Virus record (IMG/VR): IMGVR_UViG_3300021356_000152
Location: 1-25,174 of that record
Strand: one strand, 5' to 3'
Source: a virus
Length of the DNA: 25,174 nucleotides
The notes beneath the pieces were generated by a model, which worked only from the letters and a program-made list of their open reading frames with translations, ran no database searches and was not told the DNA's origin. Shown here piece by piece: positions 12,816 through 25,174 of the stretch. Position numbers and translations under genes: made by a program. Positions within the stretch are counted from its first letter, which is position 1, and each line of letters starts with the position of its first letter.

Positions 12816-13027
12816 TGCCTGGTGACGATTATTCTAAATACAAATTCGGTGGTTTTGAAGTCACTGACGTAAACATTCTCAGACTCATTTCTGAACTGGA
12901 GGGTTCATATCAACTGCTCAAGTACATGGGATTTAAGGAAGACATGGAGACGTTAGATGAAATCAAAAAAAGGTACTATAAAAAATACTTCCAAATCATC
13001 AAAGAAAATAAAAGTAAGGGGGATTAG
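12815..13027 (+). CDS. Small protein of unknown function ending inside tRNA-Ala
   Basis: The 70-aa protein has an acidic, helical N-terminal part (DVNILRLISELEGSYQLLKYMG) and a very basic C terminus (KKRYYKKYFQIIKENKSKGD). It starts in the TAATG overlap with the 44-aa ORF. Its last three codons (GGG GAT TAG) lie within the 5' end of the tRNA gene, overlapping it by ten bases. No family is recognised. Because the mature tRNA would be cut from the same transcript, mRNA and tRNA products compete if both come from one RNA. Confidence 0.65.
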   Translation: MPGDDYSKYKFGGFEVTDVNILRLISELEGSYQLLKYMGFKEDMETLDEIKKRYYKKYFQIIKENKSKGD

Positions 13028-13090
13028 CTCAGTTGGTAGAGCACCTGCTTTGCAAGCAGGCTGTCAGGAGTTCGAGTCTCCTATCCTCCA
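13018..13090 (+). tRNA. tRNA-Ala (anticodon UGC)
   Basis: The 73 bases fold into a full cloverleaf. The acceptor arms are GGGGGAT (13018-13024) and ATCCTCC (13083-13089). The D-stem is GCTC/GAGC, the anticodon stem CCTGC/GCAGG holds loop TTTGCAA (anticodon TGC), and the T-stem AGGAG/CTCCT has loop TTCGAGT. The discriminator is A13090 and CCA is not encoded. The G3:U70 wobble pair, the main identity element for alanine, is present. It would read GCA, GCG and GCU codons, which are common in the capsid genes here. Confidence 0.97.
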
Positions 13091-13109
13091 TAACCAAGGG
13101 TACTCAAGA

Positions 13110-13280
13110 ATGAAAATCAACCTTTGGTATTGCGTTGACATGGGTCAATGGCGTTGGACACTGATGGATGACCGTGACAGTCCATATCGGATGGAGTCTG
13201 GTCAACGTCCATTTCTTCGTGATGCTATGAACGACGTTGCCAATACCGTGGAATACATGCTAGAAACGAAACAACAATGA
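13110..13280 (+). CDS. Small Trp-rich protein of unknown function
   Basis: The 56-aa protein begins MKINLWYCVDMGQWRWTLMD and contains a helical C-terminal half (RPFLRDAMNDVANTVEYMLE). The open frame extends upstream to 12957 through the tRNA, but the only sensible start after the tRNA is ATG 13110, with AAGGG (13096-13100) as a modest ribosome-binding site. The N-terminal beta-like strands followed by a helix suggest a small compact domain. Its stop overlaps the start of the 30-aa ORF. The family is not recognised. Confidence 0.65.
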   Translation: MKINLWYCVDMGQWRWTLMDDRDSPYRMESGQRPFLRDAMNDVANTVEYMLETKQQ

Positions 13281-20888: not shown

Positions 20889-21289
20889 GTTTCGATACTA
20901 ACTATCCTCTTAAGGACTATCTCAACTCTATCAATCTCAATAAGAATGATCTTATGGATGGTGAAGATCCATTGTGGGAGAAGAAGTATCCTGCATGGAT
21001 TGTCAACAAACTTCTCTCAGCACACAGTGACACTTTGTTCCTCTCTAATGAGATGAACATGAATTCTTTTCTCGATAACAAACTTCAATTTCACTTTTAT
21101 CTAAATAGTGTGAGGAAACGTAAACGGTTTGCCCCTTTTCTTAAATCTGAAAAGGAAAGTGATCTTGATACGGTTAAAAAATACTATGGGTTTAGTAATG
21201 ACAAGGCACGTTCTGCTCTGCGAGTTCTGACCCAGGAACAACTTATTTACATGAAAGAGAAATTGAAAACTGGAGGAAAGAACAGATGA
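20885..21289 (+). CDS. 62: Clamp loader small subunit gp62
   Basis: gp62 joins gp44 in the clamp loader and is specific to T4-like phages. The 134-aa protein has the family-typical YPLKDYLNSINLNKNDLMDG and DPLWEKKYPAWIVNKLLSAH (about 7-46). T4 gp62 is larger (187 aa), but cyanophage versions are of this size. Translation starts at a TTG codon behind GGAGG, overlapping the methylase stop. The rare start codon may lower its level relative to gp44, which is needed at four copies per gp62. The stop overlaps the regA start region. Confidence 0.9.
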   Translation: MSFDTNYPLKDYLNSINLNKNDLMDGEDPLWEKKYPAWIVNKLLSAHSDTLFLSNEMNMNSFLDNKLQFHFYLNSVRKRKRFAPFLKSEKESDLDTVKKYYGFSNDKARSALRVLTQEQLIYMKEKLKTGGKNR

Positions 21290-21723
21290 TGCAGGAAGAA
21301 ATTCAGTGGACCGAAGAGTCCATGGTGCAGGTTACGTTGAAAGAACCTGATGATTTCCTAAAGGTTAGAGAGACCTTGACTCGCATCGGTGTGGCATCTC
21401 GTAGAGAGAAAAAGATCTATCAGTCTTGCCACATCCTACACAAGAAAGGAAAGTATTATATCGTGCACTTCAAAGAGTTGTTTGCTCTGGATGGTAAGAG
21501 AGCAAACCTTTCTCTGAATGATGTGCAACGTCGCAACAGAATTATTCAACTACTGGTTGACTGGGAACTGGTGGCAATTGATTCGTCTGGTCAAGAGAAG
21601 ATTGCTGATGCAGCACCTCTGAATCAGATCAAAGTCATTGCTTTCAAAGATAAGGACAACTGGACTTTGGAATCAAAATATAACATTGGCAAGAAGAAGG
21701 TCGTAGAGTCTCCTGCACAATAA
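21286..21723 (+). CDS. regA: RegA translational repressor of early genes
   Basis: RegA binds the start regions of many early T4 mRNAs, including its own and gp44/gp45, and blocks translation. The 145-aa protein has the family-typical start with LKEPDDFLKVRETLTRIG and the middle QSCHILHKKGKYYIVHFKEL, plus the RANLSLNDVQRRNRI segment. T4 RegA is 122 aa; the extra residues are at the C terminus. It follows gp62 as in T4 (45-44-62-regA). The TAA stop overlaps a late promoter. Confidence 0.95.
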   Translation: MMQEEIQWTEESMVQVTLKEPDDFLKVRETLTRIGVASRREKKIYQSCHILHKKGKYYIVHFKELFALDGKRANLSLNDVQRRNRIIQLLVDWELVAIDSSGQEKIADAAPLNQIKVIAFKDKDNWTLESKYNIGKKKVVESPAQ

Positions 21724-21726
21724 ATA
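21719..21726 (+). promoter_or_regulatory. Late promoter (AATAAATA) at the regA stop codon
   Basis: AATAAATA differs from the T4 late consensus in one base, overlaps the regA stop (21721-21723) and ends 22 bases before ATG 21749. It marks the switch from early replication genes to a late membrane and envelope module. Confidence 0.65.
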
Positions 21727-21748
21727 ACTGTGCCCTATTCTTCTATTC

Positions 21749-22069
21749 ATGGCTGACACAAAACCAGCTAAGGTAGAAGAGAAGGAAGACCTTGATGATG
21801 GTCCTGATCGGAGTGAAATTCTTGGTAATCTAGTGAAAGTTGCTGTACTTATTTGGTCTGCTTCTCTTCTCACTTTTAGTTACGTTAGACTTCCTAACGG
21901 ACAAAAAATCCTTGATTTTGACCCCACATTTATTGCATCCGTGTTCTCTGGATCTTTAGCTGCCTTTGGATTGAGTCCTGCCAAATCTGGTGGTGCTGGA
22001 AATGGTAAAGCAGTTGCTAAAAAGAAAGATGAACAACCCCCTGTCGTTTCTGCTGTGGAGCCTAAGTAA
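21749..22069 (+). CDS. Late two-span membrane protein, holin-like topology (unknown function)
   Basis: The 106-aa protein has an acidic N terminus (residues 1-26), two hydrophobic segments (about 29-46, VKVAVLIWSASLLTFSYV, and about 58-76, FDPTFIASVFSGSLAAFGL), and a Gly/Lys-rich C-terminal tail. Size, two spans and charged tail resemble class II holins, but the sequence is not one I recognise as a holin. The late promoter 22 bases upstream supports late expression, and the next genes are also membrane or exported proteins. The holin idea is inference from topology and context only. Confidence 0.6.
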   Translation: MADTKPAKVEEKEDLDDGPDRSEILGNLVKVAVLIWSASLLTFSYVRLPNGQKILDFDPTFIASVFSGSLAAFGLSPAKSGGAGNGKAVAKKKDEQPPVVSAVEPK

Positions 22070-22350
22070 TGCAAAAAGTAATTAACGGTCTAGCAGTGTT
22101 GTCATTTCTTGGCACAGCTGCTATAATCGGTGGAGGGACATACATCTACCTCCAACGTGATGCCCTCATTGAGGGTGTTAAAGAACAGGTCACCAAACAT
22201 GCCACTGAGGCAATCACAGGTGCCCTTCCTGGTCTAATTGATTCTGCTATGCCAGAACTACCTGATGTAACTGGTGGTGCTCTACCTGCTGCTCCTGCTG
22301 CTGGTGGTGGTGCTCCTGCAGTCACTGGTCCTGCAATTCCTTCATTCTGA
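22069..22350 (+). CDS. Small single-span membrane protein with Pro/Ala/Gly tail
   Basis: Starts in a TAATG overlap with the previous gene. The 93-aa protein has one hydrophobic segment near the N terminus (about 5-28, INGLAVLSFLGTAAIIGGGT...), a charged amphipathic helix (DALIEGVKEQVTKHATEAI) and a Pro/Ala/Gly-rich tail. I recognise similar short proteins in cyanomyoviruses, but no function is known. It is co-transcribed with the holin-like protein and the exported peptidase. Confidence 0.65.
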   Translation: MQKVINGLAVLSFLGTAAIIGGGTYIYLQRDALIEGVKEQVTKHATEAITGALPGLIDSAMPELPDVTGGALPAAPAAGGGAPAVTGPAIPSF

Positions 22351-22355
22351 TTATT

Positions 22356-23045
22356 ATGAAAAAATTTCTACTCCCTCTGTTGCTTTCTCTGGCAGCAACT
22401 CCTGCACTAGCAGATCATAAGGAGGGACATATCAAAGGATACAACACCATGGATGCTATGGGATGTATGCTTCTGAAAGAATGCACAAAGGGAGTAGATC
22501 AAATCCATTCTATTGATGATCTTCGAGCAGAATATCCTGATGCTGATTGGGATATTGTTGCTGATGAGTTCAATAAAATCATGCTTGCATTTGCTCGCAT
22601 TGGAGTAGATGTGCACCTTGCTGATTCCAAGTATTTCCCTATTGGACATCGAGGTGTTTATCACACAGTATCTAATCACTTCTATCTCAATCGTGCTTAC
22701 ATGCATCGTCCACATGTACTCATGAGTGTGACACGTCACGAGGGATGGCACGCTGCTCAGGATTGTATGGCAGGTTCTATCAAGAACAATATGATTGCTA
22801 TCATCCGACCTGAGGAAGATGTTCCTATGATTTGGAAGGAGATGGTGAAACGCACCTATCCACCCCATGCACAACCCTGGGAAGCAGAAGCAACCTGGGC
22901 AGGTAAGACTGAGGGTATGACTCAGAAAGCACTAGAGTCGTGTGCAAACAACAGTATGTGGTCTGACTATGAACCAACTCCACTTACTAAAAAGTGGTTG
23001 ATCGAGGAAGGATTTATCGATGGAGATTCAACCAATAAGAACTAA
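22356..23045 (+). CDS. Exported putative zinc metallopeptidase (HEGWH)
   Basis: The 229-aa protein starts with a clear signal peptide (MKKFLLPLLLSLAATPALA), with cleavage predicted before Asp20. Residues 128-132 are HEGWH, an HExxH zinc-binding motif. A downstream WEAEATWAGK (Glu176/Glu178) offers the third glutamate ligand of gluzincin-type peptidases. Cysteines at 37, 43, 137 and near 196 could form disulfides outside the cytoplasm. A late membrane-module context suggests action in the periplasm or on the envelope near lysis, or packaging in the virion. The zinc-peptidase call is inference from motifs. Its 3' end overlaps the next gene by 26 bases. Confidence 0.7.
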   Translation: MKKFLLPLLLSLAATPALADHKEGHIKGYNTMDAMGCMLLKECTKGVDQIHSIDDLRAEYPDADWDIVADEFNKIMLAFARIGVDVHLADSKYFPIGHRGVYHTVSNHFYLNRAYMHRPHVLMSVTRHEGWHAAQDCMAGSIKNNMIAIIRPEEDVPMIWKEMVKRTYPPHAQPWEAEATWAGKTEGMTQKALESCANNSMWSDYEPTPLTKKWLIEEGFIDGDSTNKN

Positions 23046-23823
23046 TGTCATAGGTGATATCAAAGTTCAACAACAACCTGACTGGGTGCTGAATGCACCC
23101 CAAGCAATCCCACCTGTTGTGCCTATAACGCAGCAGGTGGGTATTCCTATTGTTGATATGCCTGGGTGTGTTGAGGCACATGAACAGAGTGACAGGAGTG
23201 ATTCTATCAAAACAGATGATGCGAGAGGCACAAAGATCTTCTGTGATAGTGGAATGCCATCGTTCAATCCGATTAACTATACTCCAGATCAAATGAAATT
23301 TGAGTACAGTGCACCTGTACCCAAAGTCAATCCACCCGAACCACCAGAGTCACCAGAAGTCAAACCACCTAAGACAGAAGCACCTGCTGCTACTGCTAAG
23401 GTAGATTGTCCTACACCAGCACAGGAAGCAAAGGAACCTGTAGGTACACTGGTAGAAGGATTCAGAAAGAAAGTTGTTGCCTATGAGTTGAAAGGTAACG
23501 AATGTGTCCAGATAACAGAAGCAGTCCCACTACCTCAACAGATAGTAGCAGGACTGCCTAGTGGTGGTCAGGTTGTACAGGTTGGTGGCATTGCTGTCAT
23601 TGCAACCTCGTCAGCACTGCTAGCAAAACCTCTTGCTGACATACTTCTGAAGGCAGTGAAACCCACAGTGAAGAAGGTCATGAAGAAGATTGCAGCAATT
23701 AGAAAGAAACCTATTCCTGTGAAGTCGTCAGGGGAACGCCGAGCAGAGCAGCGTCAGATGAATCATGCAGTGAAGGCATTGCGGTCTGTGTTTCCGAGAC
23801 GGAAGAAGAAACGGAAGGGATAG
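23020..23823 (+). CDS. Proline-rich protein with one membrane span and a basic tail
   Basis: The 267-aa protein has a Pro-rich N-terminal half (PKVNPPEPPESPEVKPPKTE about 104-123), a hydrophobic segment (about 180-205, GGIAVIATSSALLAKPLADILL region), and a strongly basic C terminus (RRKKKRKG). The layout resembles a TonB-like span-to-surface protein in reverse orientation or a virion structural protein; neither can be shown. Three cysteines lie in the first half. It starts inside the peptidase gene and its 3' end overlaps the convergent minus-strand gene by 113 bases. Confidence 0.65.
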   Translation: MEIQPIRTNVIGDIKVQQQPDWVLNAPQAIPPVVPITQQVGIPIVDMPGCVEAHEQSDRSDSIKTDDARGTKIFCDSGMPSFNPINYTPDQMKFEYSAPVPKVNPPEPPESPEVKPPKTEAPAATAKVDCPTPAQEAKEPVGTLVEGFRKKVVAYELKGNECVQITEAVPLPQQIVAGLPSGGQVVQVGGIAVIATSSALLAKPLADILLKAVKPTVKKVMKKIAAIRKKPIPVKSSGERRAEQRQMNHAVKALRSVFPRRKKKRKG

Positions 23824-24601
23824 CATGAACGTGTGGGTGTGTATGTCCTGGTGGATTATTTACAACCACATCTGCACAGATTTTATACATGGGACTTTTG
23901 GGATGAAACCGAATTCCCTTGAGCATCAAATCTCCACAATTTTTTAATCTTGCGATCTCAAAATCTAATCTCTTGTTAGCAGTCAACTGTTGCTGCAATG
24001 CAATCTGAGTTGCTGCTGCTTCTTTACATTGATCTTGCAACTTTTTATCTAGTGGTCTACTCCAAGTCACAGAGAAACCAACACCTAGATTGTAGTTATC
24101 TTTTTGACCCGTTCTTATAGGAACACGATAAAGCACAGACCCAGGATTATCAGGGGCACCATCCTCATCGAGATCCCGCATATCATACACAGGATCATAA
24201 TAATATGGCTCGTATGGTTTGGTAGCAGATGCACTTCCCGTTACATATGGTGTGAAGTTCATAGTGGGACCTTGACACTGGATCCCCCCGCCGTAAGTGT
24301 TAGTGATATATGGACCCTGTAAAACCTGAATTGCCTGGTTGGTCACTGAGCCCGAACTGTTTGCCACTGGCGCTGCAGTAGCAGAGACTCCACCAACTTC
24401 AGCAAGTGCCTGTGTTGGGAAGAGTCCACTTAGGATTACTGCGAGAAGATACTTGTAGTGTCCGTTACGCTGGTAACCTCGGTCACCCTCTGAATAATTG
24501 TGTGGTTGCTTAAACCAGGACCTGAATACGTTTCGGTAAACTGGAACGCTGCTCCTGGTGTTGTTTGTGTGAACGTTGGCTTGCTGCTGATGCCTGTCCA
24601 T
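23711..24601 (-). CDS. Secreted structural-type protein; start codon unclear
   Basis: This minus-strand protein resembles a cyanophage protein I recognise by its EVGGVSATAAPVANSSGS and LQGPYITNTYGGGIQCQGPT stretches. A signal-peptide core (YLLAVILSGLFPTQALA) ends just before EVGG. The only canonical start in frame is ATG 24601, 48 residues before that core, and those residues overlap the upstream gene out of frame. No ATG, GTG, TTG or CTG lies near the signal peptide. The real start is probably between about 24481 and 24448 at a non-standard codon, or the sequence holds an error or frameshift. The tail end is His-rich (GHTHPHVHAI) and then Ser-rich. Confidence 0.7.
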   Translation of the reverse strand: MDRHQQQANVHTNNTRSSVPVYRNVFRSWFKQPHNYSEGDRGYQRNGHYKYLLAVILSGLFPTQALAEVGGVSATAAPVANSSGSVTNQAIQVLQGPYITNTYGGGIQCQGPTMNFTPYVTGSASATKPYEPYYYDPVYDMRDLDEDGAPDNPGSVLYRVPIRTGQKDNYNLGVGFSVTWSRPLDKKLQDQCKEAAATQIALQQQLTANKRLDFEIARLKNCGDLMLKGIRFHPKSPMYKICADVVVNNPPGHTHPHVHAIPSVSSSVSETQTAMPSLHDSSDAALLGVPLTTSQE

Positions 24602-24879
24602 GTCGAAGTCACTCCGTCAATAGTTACATTGTTAGTGCCTGTCCCTGGAGACAGGTTTCCATTTGCAGTAATACCACTACCCGTTGCCGAGTATTGATAT
24701 CCTGTGTTGTAGTCCATCGAATTGATGGTTTCAGTTATTTTACTTGTAGTCTCTGTATGGCTCGTCATTGAGCCCTGGGTGAAGTTTGGCACCACGGGGA
24801 CTGACCAGGCTGGGGCAGTCAACCCGTGAATTACACCAAGAACCAACCCGAGACCGATTGCTTCTTGTAGTCTAGTCAT
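24436..24879 (-). CDS. Secreted Thr-rich structural-type protein
   Basis: The 147-aa protein starts at ATG 24879 in a TAATG overlap with the upstream gene. A signal peptide is likely: MTRLQEAIGLGLVLGVIHGL followed by TAPAWSV, cleavage near residue 27. The mature part is Thr/Ser/Gly-rich (SHTETTSKITETINSMDYNT) and beta-like, as in fibre or adhesin proteins. It belongs to a three-gene minus-strand set known from cyanomyoviruses but without assigned function. A virion-surface role is inference. Confidence 0.65.
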   Translation of the reverse strand: MTRLQEAIGLGLVLGVIHGLTAPAWSVPVVPNFTQGSMTSHTETTSKITETINSMDYNTGYQYSATGSGITANGNLSPGTGTNNVTIDGVTSTWTGISSKPTFTQTTPGAAFQFTETYSGPGLSNHTIIQRVTEVTSVTDTTSIFSQ

Positions 24880-25174
24880 TAGTCGATTACAGTAATTTCA
24901 GAAACGAATTGTCCTGTAGCAGATGTGCCAGCTCCACCTGCGGTCAGTGTCATTCCATGTGTGCTATCAATAGTACCTGCCAGAGTGCCAGCAGATCCAG
25001 CTGTGTAAGAAGTAATTGAACCGAAGTTAGGAACATCACCCACAGTTGGAGCACTTGCTGGGATAGCATCACCTTGGGTATAAGAAGCACTAAATGAGAA
25101 TGCTTCACCAGATGTTGCTTGTGATGCTGTAATCGTTGTAGAAGCAGCAGTAAAACCATCACTGGTCATACCAA
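24879..25174 (-). CDS. Thr/Ser/Gly-rich structural-type protein (5' truncated by window edge)
   Basis: The frame is open to the right end of the window, so the N terminus is missing. The visible C-terminal part is about 98 residues, low in charge and rich in Ala, Ser, Thr and Gly (FTAASTTITASQATSGEAFS), with alternating small and hydrophobic residues typical of beta-rich fibre or repeat proteins. It ends EITVID and its stop overlaps the next start. Its neighbour's composition is similar, so the two may be distant relatives. Confidence 0.6.
   Translation of the reverse strand, partial: GMTSDGFTAASTTITASQATSGEAFSFSASYTQGDAIPASAPTVGDVPNFGSITSYTAGSAGTLAGTIDSTHGMTLTAGGAGTSATGQFVSEITVID

Follow-up and report, generated by a model that had tools for sequence, protein, structure and literature searches.

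In T4-like cyanophages, the gene families T4-GC 218, 219, 234, 235 and 237 have been described as a mobile cluster of hypothetical genes of the cyanomyoviruses (Sullivan et al. 2010, PMC3037559), and the passage of that paper concerned with the cluster gives it no function, no late promoter and no link to podophages or siphophages. The late motif of the cyanomyoviruses, NATAAATA, has likewise been published (PMC2984593). A second point of reference is the lysis region of T7, in which the tail fibre gene is followed by the gene of the two-span type II holin (17.5), the small terminase gene, the Rz/Rz1 spanin genes (18.5/18.7) and the large terminase gene. The breaching of the cyanobacterial envelope by cyanophages is poorly understood, and in the cyanomyovirus genome and proteome literature examined endolysins are named, while the word "holin" was not found where it was searched for.

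In this study, we analysed a 25 kb record of the IMG/VR type (25,174 nucleotides, referred to throughout as the window), which is derived from a marine T4-like cyanophage of the family Kyanoviridae, as judged from its relatives. Its distal part holds a set of genes that is, on the evidence of gene order and promoter motifs, a mobile, late-transcribed cassette in which two late operons, A-B-(C or P)-D and G-F-E, converge. Its products probably open or remodel the envelope of the host as infection ends.

Gene Content and Layout of the Cassette

The clamp loader gene 62 and regA are followed by genes A, B, P and D on the plus strand, and these are faced by the convergent genes E, F and G on the minus strand. 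The features of the locus are:

regA: 21286-21723, directly upstream of A
T4-type late promoter motif AATAAATA: 21719-21726, plus strand, RNA start predicted near 21732
Predicted short leader of A: 21732-21748, plus strand, no Shine-Dalgarno sequence
Gene A: 21749-22069, plus strand, small two-span membrane protein, phrog_721/DUF6450 (8.6e-35)
Gene B: 22069-22350, plus strand, one N-terminal span and an Ala/Gly/Pro-rich tail, phrog_568 (3.2e-37)
Gene P: 22356-23045, plus strand, signal peptide and HExxH (HEGWH), zincin-like metallopeptidase by sequence, phrog_591 (1.1e-111)
Gene D: 23020-23823, plus strand, Pro-rich N-terminal region, one span and a strongly basic tail, phrog_570 (4.8e-103)
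Gene E: 23711-24601, minus strand, exported, start within F in the -1 frame, convergent with D, phrog_848
Gene F: 24436-24879, minus strand, signal peptide, beta-rich by inspection of the sequence, phrog_650/DUF6322
Gene G: 24879-25172, minus strand, export signal in relatives, phrog_564

The contig ends inside G, leaving the 5' end of that gene and its own late promoter beyond the record. All seven of these genes match phage families without established function; beyond the DUF6450 and DUF6322 assignments, Pfam, NCBIfam and PADLOC were uninformative on the function of A to F and P, and searches of PDB sequences with profiles of A, D, E and F and with the sequences of P and E returned no credible match. 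A sequence-only reading of this DNA had proposed that four genes behind one promoter form an undescribed set of membrane and exported proteins. All four open reading frames exist at exactly the positions proposed, each matching a conserved phage family, and hydropathy bears out the topologies given for them (A with two spans, B with one, P with a signal peptide, D with a span and basic tail). The idea that the genes form a functional set also stands, but the unit is larger than four genes, since E, F and G (23711-25172, on the other strand) belong to it, and it is not undescribed, its cassette having appeared in 2010 as the mobile cluster of hypothetical genes (PMC3037559, in the passage cited above). 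Elsewhere in the window, a tRNA-Ala (TGC) gene (13018-13090) lies inside a called open reading frame (12957-13280), the first part of which is therefore probably spurious.

The families of the cassette correspond to GC218 (A), GC219 (C), GC234 (D), GC235 (E), GC236 (F), GC237 (G) and GC414 (B, "plasmid stability"). The A, D, E and G families stand together in the window, with B beside them, and by family assignment the locus is the cassette of Sullivan et al. 2010. In Syn9 the cassette comprises gp161-167, with A-B-C-D facing E-F-G, and P-HM2, S-RIM2, S-MS29 and S-SM1 have a Syn9-like cassette with variations. Among IMG/VR loci the genes upstream of D come in several orders (A-B-C-D in 21, B-P-A-C-D in 8, A-B-D in 5, A-B-P-D in 2, and others), the window having the order A-B-P-D. 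The usual third gene, C, encodes a protein of ~210 residues with an N-terminal span and a Gly-rich C-terminus; it is not in the cluster of the window, where its slot is held by P (GC945), and it may lie in the unsequenced remainder of the genome. Elsewhere P is found beside the baseplate hub gene (S-RIM2, S-SM1) or after psbD (S-MS29, Syn9), and when IMG/VR was searched with P alone, 44 of the 80 loci retrieved had at least one of A, B, C and D in the fetched flanks. In a comparison of six isolates, A, E and P were all present in Syn9 and S-SM1 and, when searched for, all absent from S-PM2, S-SZBM1, S-CREM1 and P-SS2. In addition, HMMs of all the cassette families found no match in the 25 kb of S-CREM2 that were examined.

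Such differences in position and order between genomes, like the remarks on cluster mobility in the relevant passage of Sullivan et al. (PMC3037559), could be accounted for if the cassette were kept by its own mobility, as the label of B might suggest, and had no task in the envelope. We consider this very improbable, as none of the genes was recognised as coding for a recombinase or nuclease, the dual-coded start of E and the presumed catalytic residues of P are strictly conserved, and the set is common to unrelated phage types. B itself is a protein of 93 residues with one span that matches phage families only, one of which is labelled "plasmid stability", and no independent support was found for that label. 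The same label has served elsewhere as an argument for cassette mobility and pseudolysogeny.

Late Promoter Motifs of Genes A and G

The sequence ATAAATA occurs six times on the plus strand of the window and not at all on the minus strand (~1.7 copies expected per strand). Two copies precede prohead-core and major-capsid-like genes (3094 and 4160), two are intragenic, and of the remaining two one stands ~8 nt from a start and the other upstream of A. Of the distinct upstream regions of relatives, 53 of 98 for A and 20 of 59 for G have the late motif at 90 nt or less from the gene, against a background of 1.2%, whereas it is at or near background upstream of B (1/73), C (0/56), D (0/76), E (0/79) and F (0/61) and is found upstream of P in 3 of 85 regions. 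Motifs precede A and G and not the inner genes, and for this reason A and G are, by motif distribution, the heads of two late operons. The distance from motif to ATG is fixed at 28-32 nt for A, also where the upstream gene is other than regA, and NATAAATA at this conserved distance is, on comparative grounds, a predicted T4-type late promoter.

The proposal of a late promoter before A is thus upheld by a conservation far above chance and by the fixed spacing. The proposal that it marks a switch after the replication genes is plausible, the motif being absent before regA and gene 62 in the relatives (0/14 each, background 1.2%). The RNA start is predicted near 21732, where 21735 had been suggested. 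A conserved block, GCC(T/C)TTA.CTC, surrounds the predicted start in the window (21727-21748) and in relatives. A hairpin in the leader of A was rejected, as its mean stem (5.1 versus 4.1 in shuffled sequences) is too weak and it lies partly upstream of the predicted start.

Membrane and Exported Proteins of the Cassette

Gene A encodes a protein with two spans by hydropathy, and two transmembrane segments were independently recorded for its relative by the depositors of P-SSP7. Its size and two spans are those of a class II holin, and the small residues of its second span are conserved. The N-terminus is acidic and the C-terminus Lys-rich on inspection of the sequence, and the N-in/C-in topology of holins was considered for it. 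Family searches gave no match to a holin family, the only hits being DUF6450 and unlabelled PHROGs. In shape, A is class-II-holin-like. In D, hydropathy places the span before a 62-residue tail containing 22 Lys/Arg, and no export signal was seen by eye.

The product of P has an RHEGWH motif, and this motif, E176 and E178 downstream of it, as candidates for the third zinc ligand, and four Cys (37, 43, 137 and 196) are invariant in aligned relatives; P thus carries, by alignment, the invariant HExxH of zincins and gluzincins. The AlphaFold model of P is confident (pLDDT 83.7, pTM 0.80). None of the PDB folds compared with it reaches an E-value of 0.001, although zincins recur, with weak statistics, among the nearest. 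Those of its significant structural relatives that are named belong to cyanophages, one being a "Proteolytic enzyme" (S-SCSM1), and a relative in S-SCSM2R is annotated "SprT-like". The motif and its conservation are observed directly, and they suggest that P is an exported zinc peptidase.

Relative to F at its stop, gene E occupies the -1 frame in all phages examined but one, with its hydrophobic signal spanning that stop. The ATG of E is kept within F: all 58 distinct F genes having the relevant Trp have an A before TGG, a count of related rather than independent sequences. Only 56% of the Thr codons in F end in A, and Thr and Ser codons alike follow the rule of A before TGG. Because this ATG is kept inside F, E opens with an extension of ~50 mostly polar, basic residues ahead of its signal peptide. 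A programmed frameshift from F to E, suggested by the -1 frame, was rejected in view of the in-frame ATG in 58/58 sequences with the Trp. The AlphaFold model of E was poor (pLDDT 63); resemblances to beta-pore and ring proteins were for this reason disregarded, and no fold is given. A mutual relationship of E and F was not credible.

Sec signal peptides with AxA sites are attributed to P, E, F and G, the AxA sites having been read by eye in P, E and F, and G being exported in relatives. A signal peptide was also recorded for the F relative by the P-SSP7 depositors. No lipobox, the outer-membrane lipoprotein signal of spanins, was seen by eye. Predicted topologies and export signals together make action on the envelope well supported.

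Relatives in T7-Like Phages, a Siphophage and Host Chromosomes

HMM searches identified A, F and E in the T7-like phages P-GSP1, P-SSP10 and KBS-P-1A, and D, B, A, G, F and E in the siphophage MED4-184. In T7-like cyanophages, including P-SSP7, the order is fibre, D', A, F, E, a small protein and the small terminase. D' gives a borderline HMM match to D (E about 0.01) and was recognised by position and by its composition, being Pro-rich with one span and a basic tail; the P-SSP7 depositors noted one transmembrane segment. A 54-residue amphipathic protein (phrog_2738/402) is encoded near the cassette in T7-like and siphovirus cyanophages (L172:4763-4927, with relatives in L173, L175, L187 and L199).

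The placement of the set after the tail-fibre genes of T7-like cyanophages, the late motifs upstream of the capsid genes of the window, and the 18 hypothetical proteins of S-SM1 virions (Sullivan et al., PMC3037559) would all agree with some or all of the products being tail or head accessories, whose signal-like segments would be membrane-active at entry. This seems improbable to us, however, since the Sec signal peptides with AxA sites fit poorly with virion assembly in the cytoplasm, solved structures hold no relative of D, E or A (nor credibly of F), and S-SZBM1 and S-CREM1 form virions without A, E and P.

When 84,980 species genomes were scanned with E, the matches were mostly phage contigs, together with three freshwater picocyanobacterial assemblies with G-F-E, and most of the matches in bacterial genomes look like mis-binned phage contigs. 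In two of the freshwater Synechococcus-type assemblies (L212, L214), G-F-E is convergent to a Pro-rich D', which matches the podophage D' family phrog_9426 (2e-4), whereas the contig of the third (L213) ends before D'. The locus looks chromosomal because genes that, read by eye from translations, appear to be those of ndh, citrate synthase, trpB and NAD kinase lie on the same contigs. Its neighbours code for a small exported protein and for a membrane protein with weak similarity to bestrophins. About a dozen other Synechococcales genomes contain distant relatives of E; one such gene (L215:2907-4956, on a 3.2 Mb Synechococcales chromosome contig) is seemingly split by a transposase-like ORF.

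Possible Function in the Host Envelope

The sequence-only reading had also suggested an envelope or lysis system. The envelope part is supported by the topologies and export signals, and lysis is plausible, though unproven, from the position of the T7 holin. Lysis or late envelope disruption with A as a holin-like pore is the best mechanism that we can offer; it is not established, and we advance it tentatively, at a little short of an even chance. Late in infection, the two-span A would form a holin-like pore in the inner membrane. D would be anchored by its C-terminal span, with its basic tail in the cytoplasm and its long Pro-rich part reaching outwards, and could tether the exported E, F and G across the periplasm. 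As periplasmic or outer effectors, E, F and G would act jointly with A and D to open the outer layers, the task of spanins in T7, and P may cut periplasmic or outer-membrane proteins. The main argument for lysis is the positional replacement of the T7 holin in T7-like cyanophages. Against it, no endolysin gene adjoins the cassette, A matches no holin family, and neither a lipobox nor another classical spanin signature was seen.

The set cannot be required for lysis in general, since S-PM2, S-SZBM1, S-CREM1 and P-SS2 are lytic and yet are without A, E and P. In addition, the relationship of cassette parts to cellular genes weakens a purely lytic reading, and freshwater chromosomes that keep G-F-E-D relatives beside ndh and NAD kinase fit a benign role in the envelope. 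Potentially, then, the envelope is remodelled without lysis, with exported, beta-rich E, F and G, anchored by D and A, forming a late surface or periplasmic structure, and with the cassette taken from a cyanobacterial envelope locus. Such a structure might prevent superinfection, give the cell stability, or affect grazing or adhesion. The same convergent layout on the freshwater chromosomes (with D' in two of three), the distant E relatives on other Synechococcales chromosomes, the lack of the cassette in some lytic phages, and a number of Sec-exported proteins (four) that exceeds the needs of a lysis set all speak for remodelling. We nevertheless hold it to be doubtful, if quite possible, as a strict late promoter comes late for superinfection exclusion, the podophage set occupies the T7 holin slot, and no relatives of A were found at the freshwater chromosomal loci.

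Returning to envelope disruption, a more specific proposal is that the cassette is a late, cyanobacteria-specific means of breaking through the outer envelope, not related to any known holin/spanin set, common to T4-like, T7-like and siphovirus cyanophages, derived partly from a host envelope locus and equipped with an optional exported metallopeptidase. In this specific form we think it rather unlikely. Cyanobacteria are not known to have a Lol lipoprotein pathway; if they lack it, classical lipoprotein spanins would then be unusable, which could explain a special system. The cassette offers directly testable candidate genes in abundant marine phages, given its presence in three unrelated phage types, its late control and its occurrence at the T7 holin place.

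Comparison with Known Systems

The closest described relative is the T4-GC 218/219/234/235/237 cluster, whose families the window shares except that P replaces the missing C. What appears to be new here, as read from the sequences compared, is the finding of D-A-F-E in T7-like cyanophages at the place of the T7 holin, of D, B, A, G, F and E in a siphophage, and of G-F-E-D relatives on freshwater Synechococcus chromosomes, together with an exported, HExxH zincin-like P in the slot of the third gene and a start of E inside F whose ATG is strictly kept.

Among peptidases, P resembles the gluzincins and zincins (SprT-like, minigluzincins, PprI type) in having HExxH and an invariant downstream Glu. 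It differs from them in being predicted to be exported and in its invariant Cys, and no solved structure matches it above threshold.

Unlike the T7 lysis region, the cassette has the additional genes D, G and P, its A matches no holin family, its E and F are exported proteins rather than an Rz/Rz1 pair, and no lipobox is apparent. The cassette of T7-like cyanophages nonetheless occupies the same genome position as the T7 lysis region, and the two have in common a small two-span protein and one gene that starts in the -1 frame of another.
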